Shown: positions 4,394-13,115 of the stretch, in pieces | Numbering within the stretch: the first letter of the stretch is position 1 | How the letters are laid out: each line of letters starts with the position of its first letter | DNA from: Gammaproteobacteria bacterium | GTDB taxonomy: Bacteria > Pseudomonadota > Gammaproteobacteria > Steroidobacterales > JABDMI01 | DNA: 38,225 bases | NCBI GenBank assembly: GCA_013001575.1 | Contig: JABDMI010000090.1 | Span: 1 to 38,225 of the forward strand | Direction of reading: 5' to 3' | The notes under the pieces: generated by a model | Seen by the model: the letters and a program-made list of their open reading frames with translations, nothing else | Databases searched by the model: none | What the model was told of the DNA's origin: nothing | Made by a program: the position numbers and the translations under genes

Positions 4394-5791
4394 ATGGAGT
4401 CGATCAACAATTCCCGACCCCTTCTTTCTCTGGCCAAACCCTGTCTGGCTACACTGATCGCCTGCAGCCTTTTCATGACGGCATGTGGCAAACAAGAAAA
4501 CGATGAAGCTGCAAAAGAAGCCTTTTCATCGACTTATCAAGCTCTGGAATCGGCACCCGTCTTTATCCAGAACGCCACAATCCTGCTGGGCAATGGCGAA
4601 AAACTCAATGAAGCCAACATATTGTTAAAAGACGGCAAGATTGAAGCCGTGGGCAAGCGAGTTAAATCTGTGAAAGGAGCCATCGAGATTGATGCCACCG
4701 GTAAATATGTCACCCCGGGTGTGATCGACACGCATTCGCATCTTGGTGTATACCCCTCGCCCGGCACACGCTCACACAGAGACGGCAACGAGGCGGTTGC
4801 CCCCGTCACTGCCGATGTCTGGGCCGAACACAGCGTGTGGCCGCAGGACCCCGGCTTCATCACTGCATTGGCTGGTGGTGTGACCAGTATGCAAATTTTG
4901 CCGGGTTCCGCCAATCTGTTTGGTGGTCGCTCGGTCACAGTTAAAAACGTTCCCGCGCATACCTATCAAGCGATGAAATTCCCGGGCGCACCACACGGTC
5001 TAAAAATGGCCTGCGGCGAAAACCCCAAACGCGTGTATGGCGACAAAGGCGGTCCACAGACACGCATGGGAAATGTGGCCGGTTACCGCAGAGCCTGGAT
5101 CGATGCAGCCGATTATCTTAAAAAATCTGAAGCCGCAGCCGAAGGCAGCGAGCCACCCAAGCGTGACTTGAAACTGGAAACCCTGGCGGGCGTACTCAAA
5201 GGCGAGATTCTGGTGCATAACCATTGTTATCGCGCCGATGAGATGGCCACCATGCTGGACTTGGCCAAAGAGTTTGATTACAAGGTTACCTCTTTTCACC
5301 ATGCAATTGAAGCTTATAAAATTGGTGACCTCTTAGCTGCAAACGATACCTGTGCTTCGATGTGGGCCGATTGGTGGGGCTTTAAAATGGAAGCCTTTGA
5401 CATGGTGCGTGAAAATATTCCGATGGTGGAAGCCGCCGGCGCCTGTGCCATTGTGCATTCTGATTCAGGCAAAGGCATTCAGCGCTTGCATCAGGAAGCC
5501 GCCAAAGCCATGGCCAGCGGACAACGGGTCGGGCTGGACTATGACGAAGCCACTGCCATTAGCTGGATCACCCAAAACCCGGCCAAGGCCTTGGGGATTC
5601 TTGAACACACCGGTACCCTGGAAGAAGGCAAAATGGCCGACGTAGTTTTGTGGAGCGACTCGCCCTTTAGTGTGTACACCCACGCCGAAAAAGTTTTTGT
5701 GGACGGAGCATTGATCTACGACCGCTTCGATGAATCAAAACAACCCGTGACTGATTTCAGTTTAGGCGTTTTGAATTTTGGCGCGGAGTAA
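4394..5791 (+). CDS. Metal-dependent amidohydrolase, predicted lipoprotein
   Basis: 465-residue amidohydrolase-superfamily protein with a complete metal site. A hydrophobic N-terminus ending in MTAC (Cys31) looks like a lipobox, so the enzyme is predicted to be membrane-tethered outside the cytoplasm. The core begins with VTPGVIDTHSHLG, where H114 and H116 form the strand-1 HxH pair. Further candidate ligands are H275/H277 in VHNHCYRADEM, H302/H303 in SFHHAIEAY and D357 in IVHSDSG. A GENPKRVYG segment sits where related enzymes carry a bridging residue. It most resembles the imidazolonepropionase-like/Xaa-dipeptidase group, but substrate cannot be read from sequence. A clear ribosome binding site (AGGAG) precedes the ATG. 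The stop overlaps the ribosome binding site of the next gene, whose product is a paralogue, so the two are almost certainly co-expressed. Confidence 0.88.
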   Translation: MESINNSRPLLSLAKPCLATLIACSLFMTACGKQENDEAAKEAFSSTYQALESAPVFIQNATILLGNGEKLNEANILLKDGKIEAVGKRVKSVKGAIEIDATGKYVTPGVIDTHSHLGVYPSPGTRSHRDGNEAVAPVTADVWAEHSVWPQDPGFITALAGGVTSMQILPGSANLFGGRSVTVKNVPAHTYQAMKFPGAPHGLKMACGENPKRVYGDKGGPQTRMGNVAGYRRAWIDAADYLKKSEAAAEGSEPPKRDLKLETLAGVLKGEILVHNHCYRADEMATMLDLAKEFDYKVTSFHHAIEAYKIGDLLAANDTCASMWADWWGFKMEAFDMVRENIPMVEAAGACAIVHSDSGKGIQRLHQEAAKAMASGQRVGLDYDEATAISWITQNPAKALGILEHTGTLEEGKMADVVLWSDSPFSVYTHAEKVFVDGALIYDRFDESKQPVTDFSLGVLNFGAE

Positions 5792-5801
5792 GGAGAACAT
5801 T

Positions 5802-7100
5802 ATGAATAATATTTCGATTAAAAATCCAATTAGAGTTTTTCTTGCCGGTTTCTTAATTGTTCTAAGTGGAGCATTGAATGCCGAGTTAATTGCCATCAAA
5901 GGCGCCACTATTTACACCCAGAACGATCAGGGCATATTGAAAAATGCGACTTTGATTATTGAGGATGGCGAGATCACAGCCATGGGCAAAGGTGCCCGAA
6001 TCCCGGGTTCTGCAACTATTATCGAGGCCGATGGAAAAATTGTAACCCCGGGTTTGATCGATCCCTATTCCTATTTAGGACTGGAAGAGATCTCCCTGGA
6101 AGCCAACACAGTTGATAAGCGCACTGAAAATAAAAAACATGGTGCTGGATTCGATGTCACTTCAGCGGTCAATCCGTATTCCACCGTGATCATGACCAAT
6201 CGGATTGAAGGAATCACTCACGCAATTGCTGCACCGAGTAATGGTCATTCTGTGTTCGCCGGTCAAGCTGCAGCCATTCATCTAGGCAGCGCCAAAGACG
6301 CGGAAACCGTGATCAAACCCCGCGTCGCGATGTTTGCCTCAGTCACTGGCTGGACAGCGACCCTGGCCGGCGGCTCGCGTGCCTCGGCAATGCTGGATAT
6401 ACGTGAAGCCTTACTCGACGCCCAGGCGTATGCTGATAACCAGGCCGACTACGACAAAGCCGCCATGCGTGAACTGTCCGGCAGCCGACTTGATATGCAA
6501 GCGCTGCAAGCGGTTTTAAATGCTGACATACCACTTATAGTAAACGTTAGTAGAGCCAGTGAAATTCGTCAGGCCCTGAAACTGGTCAAGGATTTTGGTG
6601 TGCGTCTGATTCTGGCGGGCGCTCAAGAAGCCTGGATGCTGGCCGATGAGATCGCCGCTGCTGATGCAGCGGTGATACTTGATCCGCTGGCTAACCTTCC
6701 GTCCAGTTTTGAATCTCTGGGTTCACGTCTGGACAATGCCGCCTTGTTACACAAGGCCGGTGTCTCGATCCTGATCGGCGATGGCGACTCTCACAATTCG
6801 CGCAATCAAAAACAATTAGCCGGTAATGCGGTGGCCAATGGTTTACCAATGACGGCTGCACTGGACGCGATCAGTAAAAACGTCGCCAATGCGTATGGCC
6901 TGGACGGCTTGGGTGAACTTAACGTCGGTGATAAAGCCAGTCTGGTCTTGTGGGATGGTGACCCACTAGAAGTTACCACCTACGCGGATGTCGTGTTTAT
7001 AGAAGGTCAGAATATCGCCATGCAAAGTCGTTCAACCTTGTTACGAGACCGATATTTACAAAAAAGTGATTTACCGCGTGCATTTGTAAAGCCACAATAA
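5802..7100 (+). CDS. Secreted amidohydrolase-fold protein lacking the metal-binding His residues
   Basis: 432 residues from the ATG at 5802, chosen because AAGGAG lies 6 bases upstream at 5790-5795; an in-frame TTG at 5778 is inside the preceding gene. A signal peptide runs to about ALNA (residue 27), with no lipobox Cys. The fold markers of the superfamily are present: an N-terminal beta-sandwich, VTPGLIDPYSYLG, and a C-terminal LNVGDKASLVLWDGDPLEVTTYADVVFIEG. However, the strand-1 HxH of the upstream paralogue is Y89-S-Y91 here, the strand-5 region reads IVNVSRASEI, and the strand-6 HH is AG in LILAGAQEAW. Only an Asp in IGDGDSHN may survive. It is therefore probably not a metal hydrolase and may be a structural or regulatory partner of the preceding lipoprotein. 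Fold is confident; role is inference. Confidence 0.85.
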   Translation: MNNISIKNPIRVFLAGFLIVLSGALNAELIAIKGATIYTQNDQGILKNATLIIEDGEITAMGKGARIPGSATIIEADGKIVTPGLIDPYSYLGLEEISLEANTVDKRTENKKHGAGFDVTSAVNPYSTVIMTNRIEGITHAIAAPSNGHSVFAGQAAAIHLGSAKDAETVIKPRVAMFASVTGWTATLAGGSRASAMLDIREALLDAQAYADNQADYDKAAMRELSGSRLDMQALQAVLNADIPLIVNVSRASEIRQALKLVKDFGVRLILAGAQEAWMLADEIAAADAAVILDPLANLPSSFESLGSRLDNAALLHKAGVSILIGDGDSHNSRNQKQLAGNAVANGLPMTAALDAISKNVANAYGLDGLGELNVGDKASLVLWDGDPLEVTTYADVVFIEGQNIAMQSRSTLLRDRYLQKSDLPRAFVKPQ

Positions 7101-7133: not shown

Positions 7134-8432
7134 ATGTCAGATAATACTAGCCGTCACGGCAATTCTCTTAGCTTTATTGAAATCACCGCGTTGATTCTTT
7201 TCAGCGCGGTGATGTTATTTTTAATTTCTCAGGTTTTTATACAAGCCTATAATTACCAGAATAACGACGAAGATATTTCAACTTCAAGAACAATGCTCGA
7301 GCGGGCGATTGGTACTGGTGAAAATGATGGTTCTTCTGAAGAAATATCTACCCATTCCACGCAACCTGATGCGAAAAGTAATCTAACTGATGCAAATTCT
7401 GAACCGGATGATTCTACAGAAAACGCCTTGGAGCAAACTCCAGCATCGCAGATCTCGAATTCTCGATCATCAAGTCAAAATACCAAGCCTATTGTTACGC
7501 CTGCTCTACGAAGTGCAGAGATTGAAGCCAGGCAAAAAGCACTCGATGAACTTTGTATGAGCATTCATGCAAAACTCGGATCTGTAGATTTGCAAGAATG
7601 CATGTCGGCAAATTTAAATCACAGCGGAGCTGTAAGTAACCAAAACAGGCCATTGGCCTTCCGTGATTTTTACACTGCTGGCAAAAGAGAGAAAACCCGT
7701 ATTATGTTAATAGGCGGAATTCATGGTGATGAATTCAGTGGCGTAAGTATTGCCTTTAAATGGCTGCATAAACTTGCCAAGACCTATGCTGCCAATAATG
7801 AAAATAGTGAAAATGCATCCGCCAATGACTTTCATTGGCGTGTAATTCCGGTACTTAATCCTGACGGTTTATTACAACCTGATGGCCAATCCACTCGAAT
7901 GAACGCCAATGCCGTTGATCTGAACCGGAATTTTCCAACTCCCGACTGGGACGAATTGGCGCACAAATTCTGGAAAGAAAAACGCTATAGTGATAAACGA
8001 CGCTATCCGGGGCCGGCGTCGGGCAGCGAAAACGAAACTCAGTGGATCGTAAGTCAATTTGATGAATTCAAGCCGCATGCGGTCATTTCCATACATGCAC
8101 CCTACGGCATTGTGGATGCTGATGGTCCGATAGAGCCACCACCCAATGTAGGTCCATTGCAATTAAAGTTACTGGGCACCTATCCGGGCTCTATGGGTCG
8201 CTATGTTGGCGTGTATAAAAATCTGTCCATGCTAACCGTCGAATTAAAACATGCGGGTATTATGCCAAGTGAAAAGGATATTGACCACATTTGGACAGAT
8301 ATTCTCGACTGGATTGACAATAAGGTCGTGGCTGCTGCAAATGCCGGACAAGACCCTTCATTACAAGCCATTCGCCATGAGATCAATGGCTCTGTCAAAG
8401 AACAAGTTTTTGATAAAAAAGCTGGCGATTAG
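7134..8432 (+). CDS. Membrane-anchored M14-family zinc carboxypeptidase
   Basis: 432 residues. One hydrophobic segment (about residues 15-40) near the N-terminus looks like a signal anchor. It is followed by a Ser/Thr/Asn/Glu-rich linker to about residue 130, then a carboxypeptidase domain. Zinc-site residues are visible: H197 and E200 in GGIHGDEFSG, and H321 in VISIHAPYG. MNANAVDLNRNFP holds the substrate-binding Asn-Arg, and E370 in MLTVELKHAG is the expected general base. This pattern matches the M14 family, including MpaA-type murein peptide amidases and succinylglutamate desuccinylase-like enzymes, so a peptidoglycan peptide or other carboxy-terminal amide is a plausible substrate. It lies 33 bases after the inactive amidohydrolase gene, with no obvious ribosome binding site. 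Co-transcription is likely but not certain. Family call is firm. Confidence 0.87.
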   Translation: MSDNTSRHGNSLSFIEITALILFSAVMLFLISQVFIQAYNYQNNDEDISTSRTMLERAIGTGENDGSSEEISTHSTQPDAKSNLTDANSEPDDSTENALEQTPASQISNSRSSSQNTKPIVTPALRSAEIEARQKALDELCMSIHAKLGSVDLQECMSANLNHSGAVSNQNRPLAFRDFYTAGKREKTRIMLIGGIHGDEFSGVSIAFKWLHKLAKTYAANNENSENASANDFHWRVIPVLNPDGLLQPDGQSTRMNANAVDLNRNFPTPDWDELAHKFWKEKRYSDKRRYPGPASGSENETQWIVSQFDEFKPHAVISIHAPYGIVDADGPIEPPPNVGPLQLKLLGTYPGSMGRYVGVYKNLSMLTVELKHAGIMPSEKDIDHIWTDILDWIDNKVVAAANAGQDPSLQAIRHEINGSVKEQVFDKKAGD

Positions 8433-8481
8433 ATTTGATTTTATAGAATCAAGCCCGATGATGCTAATGTGCTTGTAAAGT

Positions 8482-8937
8482 TCAGGGTCTGATCCAATCG
8501 ATCACATAGTCATCCAGATCCTCATCCGCAATACCTGCTTCGGAAATGCAACGACCCCGCACCGATATACCGGCTTCATGCACGCTTTCTTTGCGCCCGG
8601 TTCTTAACGGGTGCCAGCGCGGAATATCGCGACCCTCGGCTAGACGTCGGTAAGCGCAGGTTTTTGGTAACCAGCTGGCATCTTGCTCAAGCATTTGCGG
8701 GGTAACTTTAATACAATCGGGCACCAATTCTTGGCGTTTTGAATATTGGGTACAGCGACACAGCTCGGTATCTAAATAACGGCATGCAACTGAAGTGTAA
8801 AATGTTTTATTTAATTCTAGGTTCAGTAATTTATGCAAACAGCAGCGTCCACAACCATCGCATAAAGACTCCCACTCGGTGGAAGAGAATTCATGCAAGT
8901 TCTTATTTTTCCAAAATGCTTTTTGCTTGTTTGGCAT
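8482..8937 (-). CDS. YcgN-family cysteine-cluster protein
   Basis: 151-residue protein of the YcgN/UPF0260 group. It opens with FWKNKNLHEFSSTEWESLCDGCGRCC, whose CxxCxxCC cluster is the family hallmark. More Cys follow in VACRYLDTELCRCTQY and VPDCIKVTP, and then the PKTCAYRRLAEGRDIPRWHPL motif. Cys patterns of this kind are thought to bind iron-sulfur or zinc, but no enzymatic reaction is established for the family. It is convergent with the M14 carboxypeptidase gene (49-base gap) and divergent from fadD (165-base gap), so it appears to be transcribed alone. Length matches the usual 145-155. Family membership is secure; function is unknown. Confidence 0.93.
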   Translation of the reverse strand: MPNKQKAFWKNKNLHEFSSTEWESLCDGCGRCCLHKLLNLELNKTFYTSVACRYLDTELCRCTQYSKRQELVPDCIKVTPQMLEQDASWLPKTCAYRRLAEGRDIPRWHPLRTGRKESVHEAGISVRGRCISEAGIADEDLDDYVIDWIRP

Positions 8938-9090
8938 ATTTTATTAGGGTTTTTTCCAAATTTATGCCCCTTTGATATATAGTACCCAGATGATTTTTCG
9001 CGCCTGGTAATAATACTGTACGTCATAAATTGAGCGTGATAGGCAAACCATGCCACTATTGTTAATAAAAATCAATTAGCTGGCCTTATT

Positions 9091-9105
9091 AAGGAGCAAT
9101 TTGTG
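9091..9105 (+). promoter_or_regulatory. Ribosome binding site fixing the fadD GTG start
   Basis: AAGGAG (9091-9096), then six bases, then GTG at 9103. No in-frame ATG gives a better-placed start, so initiation at GTG is well supported. Confidence 0.8.
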
Positions 9106-10773
9106 GAAAAGATCTGGCTTGAACAATACCCCGAAGGAATACCACACGAGGTAGACCTTAACGAATTCAGTTCATTAAAAGACATTATCGAAAAAAGTTG
9201 TGCCAAATTTCATGCTAACAAAGCATTTACCAACTTTGGCAAATCTATTACCTATGGCGAGCTGGAAGAGCAAAGCCGGCACTTTGCGGCCTTTTTGCAG
9301 AAAGTTGTTGGCTTGAAAAAAGGTGACCGCGTCGCCCTCATGATGCCAAATTTGTTGCAATATCCAATTGCCTGTTTCGGCGTATTACGCGCTGGTGGTG
9401 TAGTCGTCAATGTCAATCCACTTTATACGCCACGAGAATTGGAACACCAATTGAAAGACTCAGGTGCCAAGACCATCCTGATCCTGGAAAATTTTGCCCA
9501 TGTATTACAAGAGGTGATTGCCAATGCCGACGTATCAAAAGTAATTACCACCCAGATTGGTGATGCTTTACCCGGGCTAAAGGGTAAATTGATGAGTTTT
9601 GCGGTTAAGTACATCAAAAAAATGGTGCCCACCTGGAGTCTGCCTGGGTCAACCACATACAAAAAAGCCATGACTGAAGGAAAATGGCAAGAAATGGATG
9701 AGGTCGCACTCAGTCTTGAGGATACTGCATTTTTGCAATACACCGGCGGCACAACCGGGGTTTCAAAAGGGGCACAACTCACGCATGGCAATATGGTGGC
9801 TAACTTGCAACAAGCCTCGGCCTGGATCAGCACCAAAACCAAAGAGGGTGACGAGGCAATTATCACTGCCTTGCCTTTGTATCACATCTTTTCGCTCACG
9901 GCGAACTGTCTGGTGTTCATGAAGCTGGGCGCGGAAAACATATTAATCACTAATCCTCGTGATTTTGACGGATTTGTTAAAACCCTGGCGAACACTCGCT
10001 TTACCGCAATCACCGGAGTGAATACCTTGTTCAACGCGCTATTGCACACCCCCGGGTTTAGAGATATTGATTTCAGTGCCTTACGCTTGACTCTTGGTGG
10101 AGGTATGGCCGTACAAAAAGCCGTCGCGGAAGACTGGCAAAACACAACCGGGGTCGCGCTTCTGGAAGCCTATGGCTTAACCGAAACCTCACCGGCAGCC
10201 AGTATGAACCCGATGAATAATCTGGGCTTTAATGGCTCGATTGGTCTGCCAATCTCCTCCACCGAGTTCAGTATTCGTAATGAAGCCGGAGAAGAACTGC
10301 CCATAGGCGAGACCGGCGAGATCTGCATCAAAGGCCCACAAGTCATGAAAGGTTACTGGAACCGACCCGATGCAACAGCGGAAACATTTTTCCCGGAAGG
10401 CTGGTTACGTACCGGTGACATAGGGCATTGTGATGACAAGGGATATTTTTATATCTCGGATCGAAAAAAAGATATGATCCTGACTTCAGGCTTTAATGTT
10501 TATCCGAATGAAGTGGAAGGAGTTGCAGTAACCCACCCAAATATTGTCGAAGCAGCTGCCGTAGGTGTGCCGCATCCACGTTCGGGCGAAGTGGTCAAAT
10601 TGTTTGTCGTTAGCGACAATCCTGCATTGACAGAAAAAGAAGTCATTGAGTTTTGCCGCGAAAACATGACAGCGTATAAAGTGCCCAAACATGTGGAATT
10701 CAGAGATGAATTGCCCAAATCCAATGTTGGCAAGATCTTACGAAGGCACCTACGCGACGAAGCTCAAAGTTAA
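9103..10773 (+). CDS. fadD: Long-chain fatty acid-CoA ligase
   Basis: 556-residue AMP-forming acyl-CoA synthetase. It activates long-chain fatty acids with ATP and CoA for beta-oxidation and phospholipid use, normally at the inner membrane face. The N-terminus (MEKIWLEQYPEGIPHEVD) matches proteobacterial FadD. The P-loop-like motif YTGGTTGVSKGAQLTH sits at about residues 211-226. EAYGLTETSPA is the A5 motif, and the fatty-acyl/AMP signature region continues through GWLRTGDIGHCDDKGYFYISDRKKDMI. The C-terminal catalytic Lys lies in KSNVGKILRRHLRDE. Initiation is at GTG. The gene stands alone: it is divergent from the ycgN-like gene and ends in a strong hairpin terminator. No FadR operator was identified by eye. 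Identification is secure. Confidence 0.96.
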   Translation: MEKIWLEQYPEGIPHEVDLNEFSSLKDIIEKSCAKFHANKAFTNFGKSITYGELEEQSRHFAAFLQKVVGLKKGDRVALMMPNLLQYPIACFGVLRAGGVVVNVNPLYTPRELEHQLKDSGAKTILILENFAHVLQEVIANADVSKVITTQIGDALPGLKGKLMSFAVKYIKKMVPTWSLPGSTTYKKAMTEGKWQEMDEVALSLEDTAFLQYTGGTTGVSKGAQLTHGNMVANLQQASAWISTKTKEGDEAIITALPLYHIFSLTANCLVFMKLGAENILITNPRDFDGFVKTLANTRFTAITGVNTLFNALLHTPGFRDIDFSALRLTLGGGMAVQKAVAEDWQNTTGVALLEAYGLTETSPAASMNPMNNLGFNGSIGLPISSTEFSIRNEAGEELPIGETGEICIKGPQVMKGYWNRPDATAETFFPEGWLRTGDIGHCDDKGYFYISDRKKDMILTSGFNVYPNEVEGVAVTHPNIVEAAAVGVPHPRSGEVVKLFVVSDNPALTEKEVIEFCRENMTAYKVPKHVEFRDELPKSNVGKILRRHLRDEAQS

Positions 10774-10777
10774 CATT

Positions 10778-10806
10778 AAAAGCCGACATCAATGTCGGCT
10801 TTTTTA
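10778..10806 (+). terminator. Rho-independent terminator of fadD
   Basis: AGCCGACAT and ATGTCGGCT form a perfect 9-bp stem around a two-base CA centre (in practice a shorter stem with a larger loop), followed by a run of T. It lies a few bases after the fadD stop codon. It should separate fadD from the sortase cluster downstream. Confidence 0.92.
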
Positions 10807-10988
10807 TTGATATGTACGATCCGGCTTCTTCCAGCAAGTATTATCAATACACATTGATTTCAATTGCCTGGAAGCCACACTCTGTCACAGTTCACACAAT
10901 AAACACAAAATAGACAAACAGCAATCATAAGCCGTACACATAGCGCAGGCAAAGTAGAACCTGAACTTATCTCCACAGGGAATACGTC

Positions 10989-13115
10989 ATGCGACTATCC
11001 AATAAAAAATTCAGATCCTACTTTTATTTTTATTTAATCTTGTCTACTTTACTGGTTTGCTTAATTACACAGACCGTATACGCAACCGATCATTCAGATC
11101 AAACTGTCAAAACCAAAAACAATCATGCAATGCTTAACGGCGTGGGGACCGGCACATTGTTGATGCGCAATAACAAGCAGGACAGCTATCAAGTGGCTAC
11201 CCTGCATAGCACACAAGCTAAGGTCAGTATTAGTGGGCCCATCGCTACTACAGAAATTAGCCAGAGCTTTAATAATACTGGTCTGGATTTTGCCGAAAGC
11301 ATCTATGTATTTCCTCTAGCAGAGAATTCCGCTGTGAAGGCCATGGAAATACACATCGGCGAGCGCAGTATTGTTGGCAAGATCATGGAAAAAAAACATG
11401 CCAAGCGCATTTATGTGCAAGCCAAGCGCCAGGGAAAACGTGCCGCATTGCTTGAGCAATCCAGGCCTAACCTGTTCACAACCTCAGTGGCAAACATTCC
11501 AGCAGGAGAAACTGTAACGGTCATTTTGCGCTTCAACCAGACACTCATTTTGCAATCTGATGAAACCAGCCAGGTTAAGCACTATGAATATCGCCTGCCC
11601 ACAACCCTGACTCCCCGCTACCAACCCATTGAGCAAAGATTGAAAAATGATAATAGAGCAACGGAAAACACTGTTGAGCCTGATTCAACTGCAAACCATG
11701 AAATAAAAAATTTGGAGCAGGCTATTTTCCCGCCACAAGTTAAACAAGCTGGTGAAAGAGTGATAAATCCTATAAATATACAAGTTGAAATGCATGAAAT
11801 GAATTTTGATGATGAAGTCCGAAGCCTGTATCAAAAAATCGATCAGGAAACAGTTGACCGGGTGCGACACCTGTCTTTCACCAAACACAGCGTGTCAATG
11901 GACCAGGACTTTGTGCTGCGCTGGACACTGAATGAAAACACAGAGAATCGTGCCCAGTTCTTTACTGAAACTATTGAAGGTGAAGAATATGGTTTACTGG
12001 TCCTGAGTCCGCCTGAACCCGGACAAAAGACACAATCACTTCCGCGAGAAGTTATTTTTATAATCGACAGTTCCGGCTCAATGGGCGGTGCCTCCATGCA
12101 GCAAGCCAAACAAAGTTTAATATTTGCACTCGATAATATCGCTCCTCATGAGCGTTTCAATATTATTGATTTTGACTCCAGCTATACGAATCTATTTACA
12201 CAGCCAAAAGAAGCAAGTCAAGATAATATACGGCTTGCAAAAAACTTTGTTCGCAAGTTGAGTGCGGGCGGCGGAACGGAAATGGCAAGGGCCTTACGCT
12301 CTGCCTTGGAAATGAAAGCTGATGGAAATTTTTTAAAACAAATTGTGTTTATTACCGATGGCGCCGTCAGTAATGAACAACAGTTATTAACCCTATTACA
12401 CGAGAAGCTGGGTAACTCGCGCCTATTCACTGTCGGAATCGGGTCCGCACCAAATTCGTATTTTATGCGTAAAGCCGCTGATTTTGGCCGGGGCAGCTTT
12501 ACATACATTGGTTCATTACATGACGTACAACCACAAATGTCGGAACTCTTCGCCAAAATTGGTTCACCTTTACTGCAAAATATTGAACTGGAATTTCCGA
12601 CTGGAATTGATATTGAACAATGGCCTCAACAAATACCGGATCTTTATGCCGGTGAAGCACTGATCGTACCGGTCAAATTTAATCATCGGCCAAGCTGGGT
12701 GACGGTCAAAGGCCTCAATAACAGCATCTGGGTCAGCACATTAACTCTCGACTCCAGTAAACAGCATCCCGGTGTATCCAGTCTCTGGGCGCGTAAAAAA
12801 ATTGAATCACTCATGGACGAAATGGTGCGAGGCCAGAGCGAAGAAAGTATAAAGCCACAAATTATTGATGTGGCCTTAGGACATCATTTGCTAAGTAAAT
12901 TCACAAGCTTTGTGGCCGTGGATGAAAGCACCGTACGCAAGCAAGATCAAAAGTTGGCATCTGAAAAACTGGCAAATTTACAACCCAAGGGTCATCGTTA
13001 TCCGGGCACTGCCAGTGGTTTGAATTTATGGTATTTGTTCGTCTTACTAAGTTTGTCCTTTGCTGTCATAGTGCGCTATAGACATATTTATGTAGTTAGT
13101 TGGATAAAGCGATGA
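10989..13115 (+). CDS. VIT and VWA domain surface protein, sortase substrate
   Basis: 708-residue exported protein. A signal peptide runs to about VYA (residue 32). A VIT (inter-alpha-trypsin inhibitor-like) domain covers roughly residues 45-190, including YVFPLAENSAV. A von Willebrand A domain starts at EVIFIIDSSGSMGG, whose DxSxS metal-site motif begins at D360; GGGTEMARAL and FITDGAVSNE complete the MIDAS pattern. The C-terminus is a sorting signal: PGTASG (from P672), a hydrophobic segment, then a basic tail ending WIKR. This is the arrangement of the 'marine proteobacterial sortase target' family, always found beside its dedicated sortase. The stop overlaps the sortase ATG (ATGA), so translation is likely coupled. 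Expected location is periplasmic or surface after cleavage. The ligand of the VWA domain is unknown. Preceded by AGGGA eight bases before ATG. Confidence 0.93.
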   Translation: MRLSNKKFRSYFYFYLILSTLLVCLITQTVYATDHSDQTVKTKNNHAMLNGVGTGTLLMRNNKQDSYQVATLHSTQAKVSISGPIATTEISQSFNNTGLDFAESIYVFPLAENSAVKAMEIHIGERSIVGKIMEKKHAKRIYVQAKRQGKRAALLEQSRPNLFTTSVANIPAGETVTVILRFNQTLILQSDETSQVKHYEYRLPTTLTPRYQPIEQRLKNDNRATENTVEPDSTANHEIKNLEQAIFPPQVKQAGERVINPINIQVEMHEMNFDDEVRSLYQKIDQETVDRVRHLSFTKHSVSMDQDFVLRWTLNENTENRAQFFTETIEGEEYGLLVLSPPEPGQKTQSLPREVIFIIDSSGSMGGASMQQAKQSLIFALDNIAPHERFNIIDFDSSYTNLFTQPKEASQDNIRLAKNFVRKLSAGGGTEMARALRSALEMKADGNFLKQIVFITDGAVSNEQQLLTLLHEKLGNSRLFTVGIGSAPNSYFMRKAADFGRGSFTYIGSLHDVQPQMSELFAKIGSPLLQNIELEFPTGIDIEQWPQQIPDLYAGEALIVPVKFNHRPSWVTVKGLNNSIWVSTLTLDSSKQHPGVSSLWARKKIESLMDEMVRGQSEESIKPQIIDVALGHHLLSKFTSFVAVDESTVRKQDQKLASEKLANLQPKGHRYPGTASGLNLWYLFVLLSLSFAVIVRYRHIYVVSWIKR

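Follow-up and report, generated by a model that had tools for sequence, protein, structure and literature searches.

The locus raises the question of why a bacterium should keep, side by side, two related genes for putative exported amidohydrolases, only one of which has kept the residues that bind metal. The window analysed here, i.e., the whole stretch of 38,225 nucleotides of contig JABDMI010000090.1, comes from an assembly of 2.25 Mb in 132 contigs, gammaproteobacterial to judge from its relatives. Both genes, hereafter called A and B, are annotated plain 'amidohydrolase', so that automated annotation and enzyme screens take the dead chain for an active one and would assay the live chain in the absence of its partner.

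Gene A (4394-5791, forward strand) starts with an ATG and encodes a protein of 465 residues. It had been taken for a lipoprotein in a previous, sequence-only reading of this DNA, and a predicted lipoprotein signal is indeed found, with the lipobox MTAC and its cysteine C31. A matches the Pfam families PF07969 (56.5 bits for a cut-off of 29.7) and PF01979 (49.1 bits for a cut-off of 25), which places it in the amidohydrolase superfamily. Its six metal-site ligands are H114 and H116 in the strand-1 HxH (H114-S-H116, 4733-4741), K204 at the bridging-lysine position of strand 4 (5003-5005), H277 of strand 5 (5222-5224), H303 of strand 6 (5300-5302) and D357, the strand-8 ligand and general base (5462-5464). 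Both His of the HxH are present in 110 of the 111 A proteins and the four other ligands in all 111; the set is complete in 110, the remaining protein being truncated by its contig. The sequence-only reading had correctly placed H114-S-H116, H277, H303 and D357, but the neighbouring residues that it also counted are not invariant (H275 is His in 96/111 proteins, H302 in 102/111) and K204 was overlooked. At the position of K204, lysine is also present in the solo relatives of A described below, whereas B has Phe, Val or Tyr. A two-metal site with a bridging, usually carboxylated, lysine characterises subtype-I amidohydrolases, and the ligands of A match this set (HxH, K, H, H, D). Judging from its position and from these known enzymes, K204 may be the carboxylated bridging lysine.

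Gene B (5802-7100, forward strand) encodes an amidohydrolase-fold protein with a Sec signal peptide, predicted to be exported, and without metal ligands. Two starts are possible, a TTG at 5778, which is the start of the open reading frame, and an ATG at 5802; the latter is the better candidate, because a ribosome-binding site, TAAGGAG, is read directly just ahead of it (5789-5795). The stop codon of A lies within this site, which points to translational coupling of A and B. B residues are numbered here from TTG 5778. A has a lipobox and B has none, a division found again in most relatives.

Although A and B are only 25% identical, B is still recognised as having an amidohydrolase domain by Pfam (PF01979, 36.8 bits for a cut-off of 25; PF07969, 34.9 bits for a cut-off of 29.7). 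An AlphaFold2 model of B, built from 22 B sequences (pLDDT 84.5, pTM 0.81), matches the Thermotoga maritima amidohydrolase 3ooq with a Z of 45.0 over 372 residues (rmsd 3.1 Å, TM-score 0.87 normalised by target length), the next entry reaching only Z 25.9. Retention of the fold, as proposed from the sequence, is thus supported by the model. The metal site itself is gone. In alignment with A, Y97-S-Y99 (6066-6074) takes the position of HxH, N256 that of H277, G281 that of H303 and a Phe that of K204, and a Gly, G336, lies between D335 and D337 at the position of D357. None of the six ligands needed for an active amidohydrolase is therefore left in the window B protein, as had been noticed earlier for the His ligands, and an alternative alignment does not restore them, as none of its six His lies within an HxH. 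Survival of the ligand Asp as D335 or D337 was also considered and rejected: these residues flank the position in the window B protein and are unconserved among B proteins.

The same loss is observed in the relatives of B. Among 110 B proteins, none of the six ligands is retained in 85, one in 22 and two in three, and HxH is absent from the strand-1 segment of all 110; no relative is thus found whose second protein keeps it. The residue at the first-His site is variable (I, Y, F, L, D, N, V and M, among others). As the replacing residues vary in this way, Y-S-Y is not a conserved motif, and the HxH-to-YxY change, whose conservation had been raised as a check, is rejected as a new one: Tyr occupies the first site in just 16/110 proteins, and VNVS, the strand-5 segment of the window protein, is likewise not conserved. 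The common feature of B orthologues is the missing ligands, not any particular replacement. B proteins have conserved positions of their own (E104, N132, R142, D262, W286, L307-P308 and D395), as well as a C-terminal helix, SRxTxLRDRY, that is absent from A. In the window, this helix reads SRSTLLRDRY (7026-7055, with R418, L422, R425 and Y426) and is a candidate interface.

The association of the two genes is constant. A is found in 36 of the 299 sampled Pseudomonadota genomes, and B directly adjoins it in all 36 (30 in the main scan, with G640, G630, G600, G679, G518 and G384 inspected in addition). Starting from B, 21 of the 369 sampled gammaproteobacterial genomes contain the gene and all 21 have A adjoining or fused, one of them, G357, being judged from the rows of the B search itself. 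Conservation of the pair, on which the sequence-only reading had made its proposal depend, is thus observed from both sides. A search with the A alignment gave 80 named loci, including Alteromonas, Glaciecola, Lysobacter, Xanthomonas, Stenotrophomonas, Kangiella, Microbulbifer, Hyphomonas and Parvularcula; in 79 of them B is immediately downstream, mostly overlapping the stop codon of A. In the 80th (L158, a Steroidobacteraceae MAG), both genes are kept 5.5 kb apart (7318-12816), with three genes between them, the first resembling by eye a P-type ATPase. The A and B genes mostly overlap or touch. Certain genomes are present both in the genome samples and among the named loci, and the sample outside Pseudomonadota, made of five plasmid-collection loci and a few MAG contigs, is thin. 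A second, divergent pair is present in G305 (L075) and in G523 (L222), that of G305 combining an A' with 6/6 ligands and a B' with 1/6. Plasmid-borne pairs are also seen in Novosphingobium (L225, about 5089-6573), on a plasmid conjugative by typing, and in Qipengyuania (L224, 5242-6651).

In one bacterial family, A and B are the two halves of one chain, about 920 residues long, in 9/9 carrier genomes. A third amidohydrolase-like domain or protein, here called N and also ligand-less, is encoded in this family by a separate gene directly upstream. In a second lineage, N is fused to the N terminus of A (1000-1050 residues) and a separate B follows. N is always located just upstream of A: at 7311-8987 in L067, in the first half of the long open reading frame in L065, L066, L069, L070 and L071, and in the upstream open reading frame in L167-L174. 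The order N-A-B is constant across the sampled loci, fusion being possible at either junction, and N is the only gene that recurs beside A and B across families. An N-A-B set is also carried by a plasmid of Hymenobacter, of the Bacteroidota (L226, 3278-7699), with several frame breaks due either to a pseudogene or to sequencing errors. The constant order and the fusions are the strongest evidence that A, B and N act as a single unit. A model of the A-B fusion, computed as one chain from 17 natural sequences, has a pTM of 0.78 and a mean pLDDT of 76; this pTM exceeds the value near 0.5 that we would expect, by our own estimate rather than from a control run, for two unconnected domains of equal size.

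B is under purifying selection, with dN/dS values of 0.06-0.29 among related genome pairs, compared to 0.02-0.21 for A. It evolves faster than A (median between-genome identity of 38% vs. 59%) and has far fewer conserved positions, both of which are below what one might expect for a tight, permanent interface. The divergences of A and B run parallel (r = 0.79), as shared ancestry alone would also yield. In a tree including the solo relatives, a branch with 98/99 support parts the ligand-bearing proteins (A and solo) from the ligand-less ones (B and N), which indicates that the ligand loss is old; this split holds without establishing B as one strict clade. The loss of all ligands and the faster evolution of B are also what a decaying duplicate would display. 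Decay is nevertheless hardly conceivable and was ruled out, like chance, in view of the conservation of B and its dN/dS: B-only motifs are conserved, the frame and the signal peptide, described earlier for the window, are intact in essentially all genomes, and B is present wherever A occurs in the sampled Pseudomonadota. Together with the adjacency, the fusions and the absence of any B with a full ligand set, these results bear out the earlier view of B as a conserved pseudoenzyme tied to A.

A-like genes also occur alone, in Nonomuraea (Actinomycetota) and in Acetoanaerobium, Cytobacillus and Monoglobus (Bacillota). The products of these four genes have HxH and the other ligand motifs, the strand-6 His motif of Monoglobus being missed by the simple pattern used, and no evident signal peptide; no B is seen beside any of them. 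The fold thus needs no partner in principle, and in this small sample B seems to accompany the exported forms of two-membrane bacteria.

What is shown directly is that the ligands of B are lost, that the two genes are conserved, adjacent and in places fused, that they evolve under purifying selection, and that their products share a fold and have export signals. This makes it probable that A and B are homologous subunits of one exported enzyme, in which B is a pseudoenzyme required by A: B has no catalytic residues, is under selection and constantly accompanies an active partner. Genes that are adjacent or fused would also be compatible with two proteins acting in succession. Other roles of B were weighed as well. 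B could be a transient helper of A, needed for its export, folding or metal loading in the periplasm without becoming a lasting subunit. The adjacency data also fit this role, and so does the association of B with an exported A, as the four solo relatives and 3ooq are without an evident signal peptide and no B is seen adjoining the former. A lasting 1:1 association is however favoured by the A-B fusions throughout one family and the N-A fusions in another, and chaperone-like features are not seen in B, which leaves the helper role rather unlikely.

Slightly less likely still, B could have a role of its own in the pathway of A, for instance as a periplasmic binding protein for the substrate or product of A. 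The barrel is kept, and the conserved polar residues E104, N132, R142, D262 and D395 could line a pocket. The residues around the former metal site are however highly variable in B, binding alone would not need a 1:1 fusion, and gene overlap, fusions and obligate pairing better suit a subunit. The same B-only polar residues and the strong selection could point instead to an enzyme with a new active site, metal-free or differently liganded; as the former catalytic positions are very variable and no conserved ligand replacement is observed, this appears improbable.

If A and B are indeed subunits of one enzyme, A would hold the sole metal site and perform the hydrolysis. B would be an ancient paralogue that lost all its ligands before today's lineages diverged and that has been retained since A requires it. 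Most likely, the ancestral amidohydrolase would have been a homo-oligomer and B would have replaced its second, identical subunit, so as to keep A in the active oligomer and to shape, or cover, the entrance to the active site of A. Physical contact between A and B, the requirement of B for A activity and such a gating role are what we infer from the observations above. N would be a further dead paralogue, added in one lineage to give the N-A-B set. More tentatively, and with doubt slightly outweighing belief, one could propose a wider rule, in which this exported amidohydrolase is functional only as a hetero-oligomer in which the live chain is combined with a single dead paralogue (A-B) or with two of them (N-A-B), an arrangement tied to export in Gram-negative bacteria, the cytosolic relatives acting alone. 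If A does require B, co-expression with B would be needed to study exported amidohydrolases that number in the hundreds and are still uncharacterised, among them those of Xanthomonas, Stenotrophomonas and Lysobacter. The solo, paired, tripled and fused forms found in one family of proteins also constitute a natural series in which to ask how a homomeric enzyme turns into a live/dead heteromer.

The neighbourhood of the pair gives a few indications of its context. Downstream of B and on the same strand, a gene for an M14-type carboxypeptidase (7134-8432), MpaA-like while under the equivalog cut-off, is present in the window; elsewhere, an M14 peptidase gene follows B only in two close relatives and, after intervening genes, in two other families. 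Further away on the forward strand are genes for a marine proteobacterial sortase target protein (TIGR03788, 10989-13115) and for the class GN sortase (TIGR03784, 13100-13732) that is paired with this target. In Qipengyuania, the gene immediately before A and B, read in the same direction, encodes a peptide MFS transporter, which might point to a peptide as substrate. From the superfamily and the adjoining M14 peptidase gene, one may guess at a small amide or peptide; as no neighbour recurs over many families, no substrate is claimed from gene context.

Finally, A and B can be compared with known systems. No paper on this pair was found, and Xylella XF2472, an extracellular 'amidohydrolase' of the literature, is not counted among its members. 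Neither protein belongs to the imidazolonepropionases (HutI), A and B scoring 51.3 and 35.8 bits against the TIGR01224 cut-off of 298.15, i.e., as distant superfamily matches; moreover, the HutI site is mononuclear, whereas A has a two-metal set with a Lys. The nearest solved relative is 3ooq (E = 1.6e-64 for A, 2.9e-20 for B), a structure to which no function has been assigned. It shares with A the fold and the same six ligands and differs by the absence of an evident signal peptide in its aligned part and by the single sequence in its crystal entry; with B it has the fold in common, all its ligands being absent from B. Among the matches of the B sequence and structure searches are the CRMPs, or dihydropyrimidinase-related proteins, in which the amidohydrolase-superfamily fold is kept and the metal site lost. 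Unlike B, these are animal neuronal proteins that do not adjoin a live homologue.

A precedent is the pseudo-dihydroorotase (pDHO) of Pseudomonas aspartate transcarbamoylase (ATCase, class A2), an inactive amidohydrolase-fold protein needed by its partner for assembly and activity (PMC7053772). Like B, it is a dead amidohydrolase fold with an active partner, but this partner, ATCase, is cytosolic and of unrelated fold, whereas that of B is a homologous, live and exported amidohydrolase; no ATCase chain is encoded alongside B, whose constant partner is A. As far as found, the proposed design of one live and one or two dead chains is new for this superfamily. It is reminiscent of M16B heterodimeric peptidases (MPP alpha/beta, SPH2681/SPH2682 and TTHA1264/TTHA1265), which associate a live half with one lacking the metal motif, both being required, and whose halves are encoded by adjacent genes or fused (PMC12731061). 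Fold and chemistry are unrelated, and the clam-shell mechanism is a feature of the M16B peptidases; both systems nevertheless have adjoining or fused halves, just one of which bears the metal motif.
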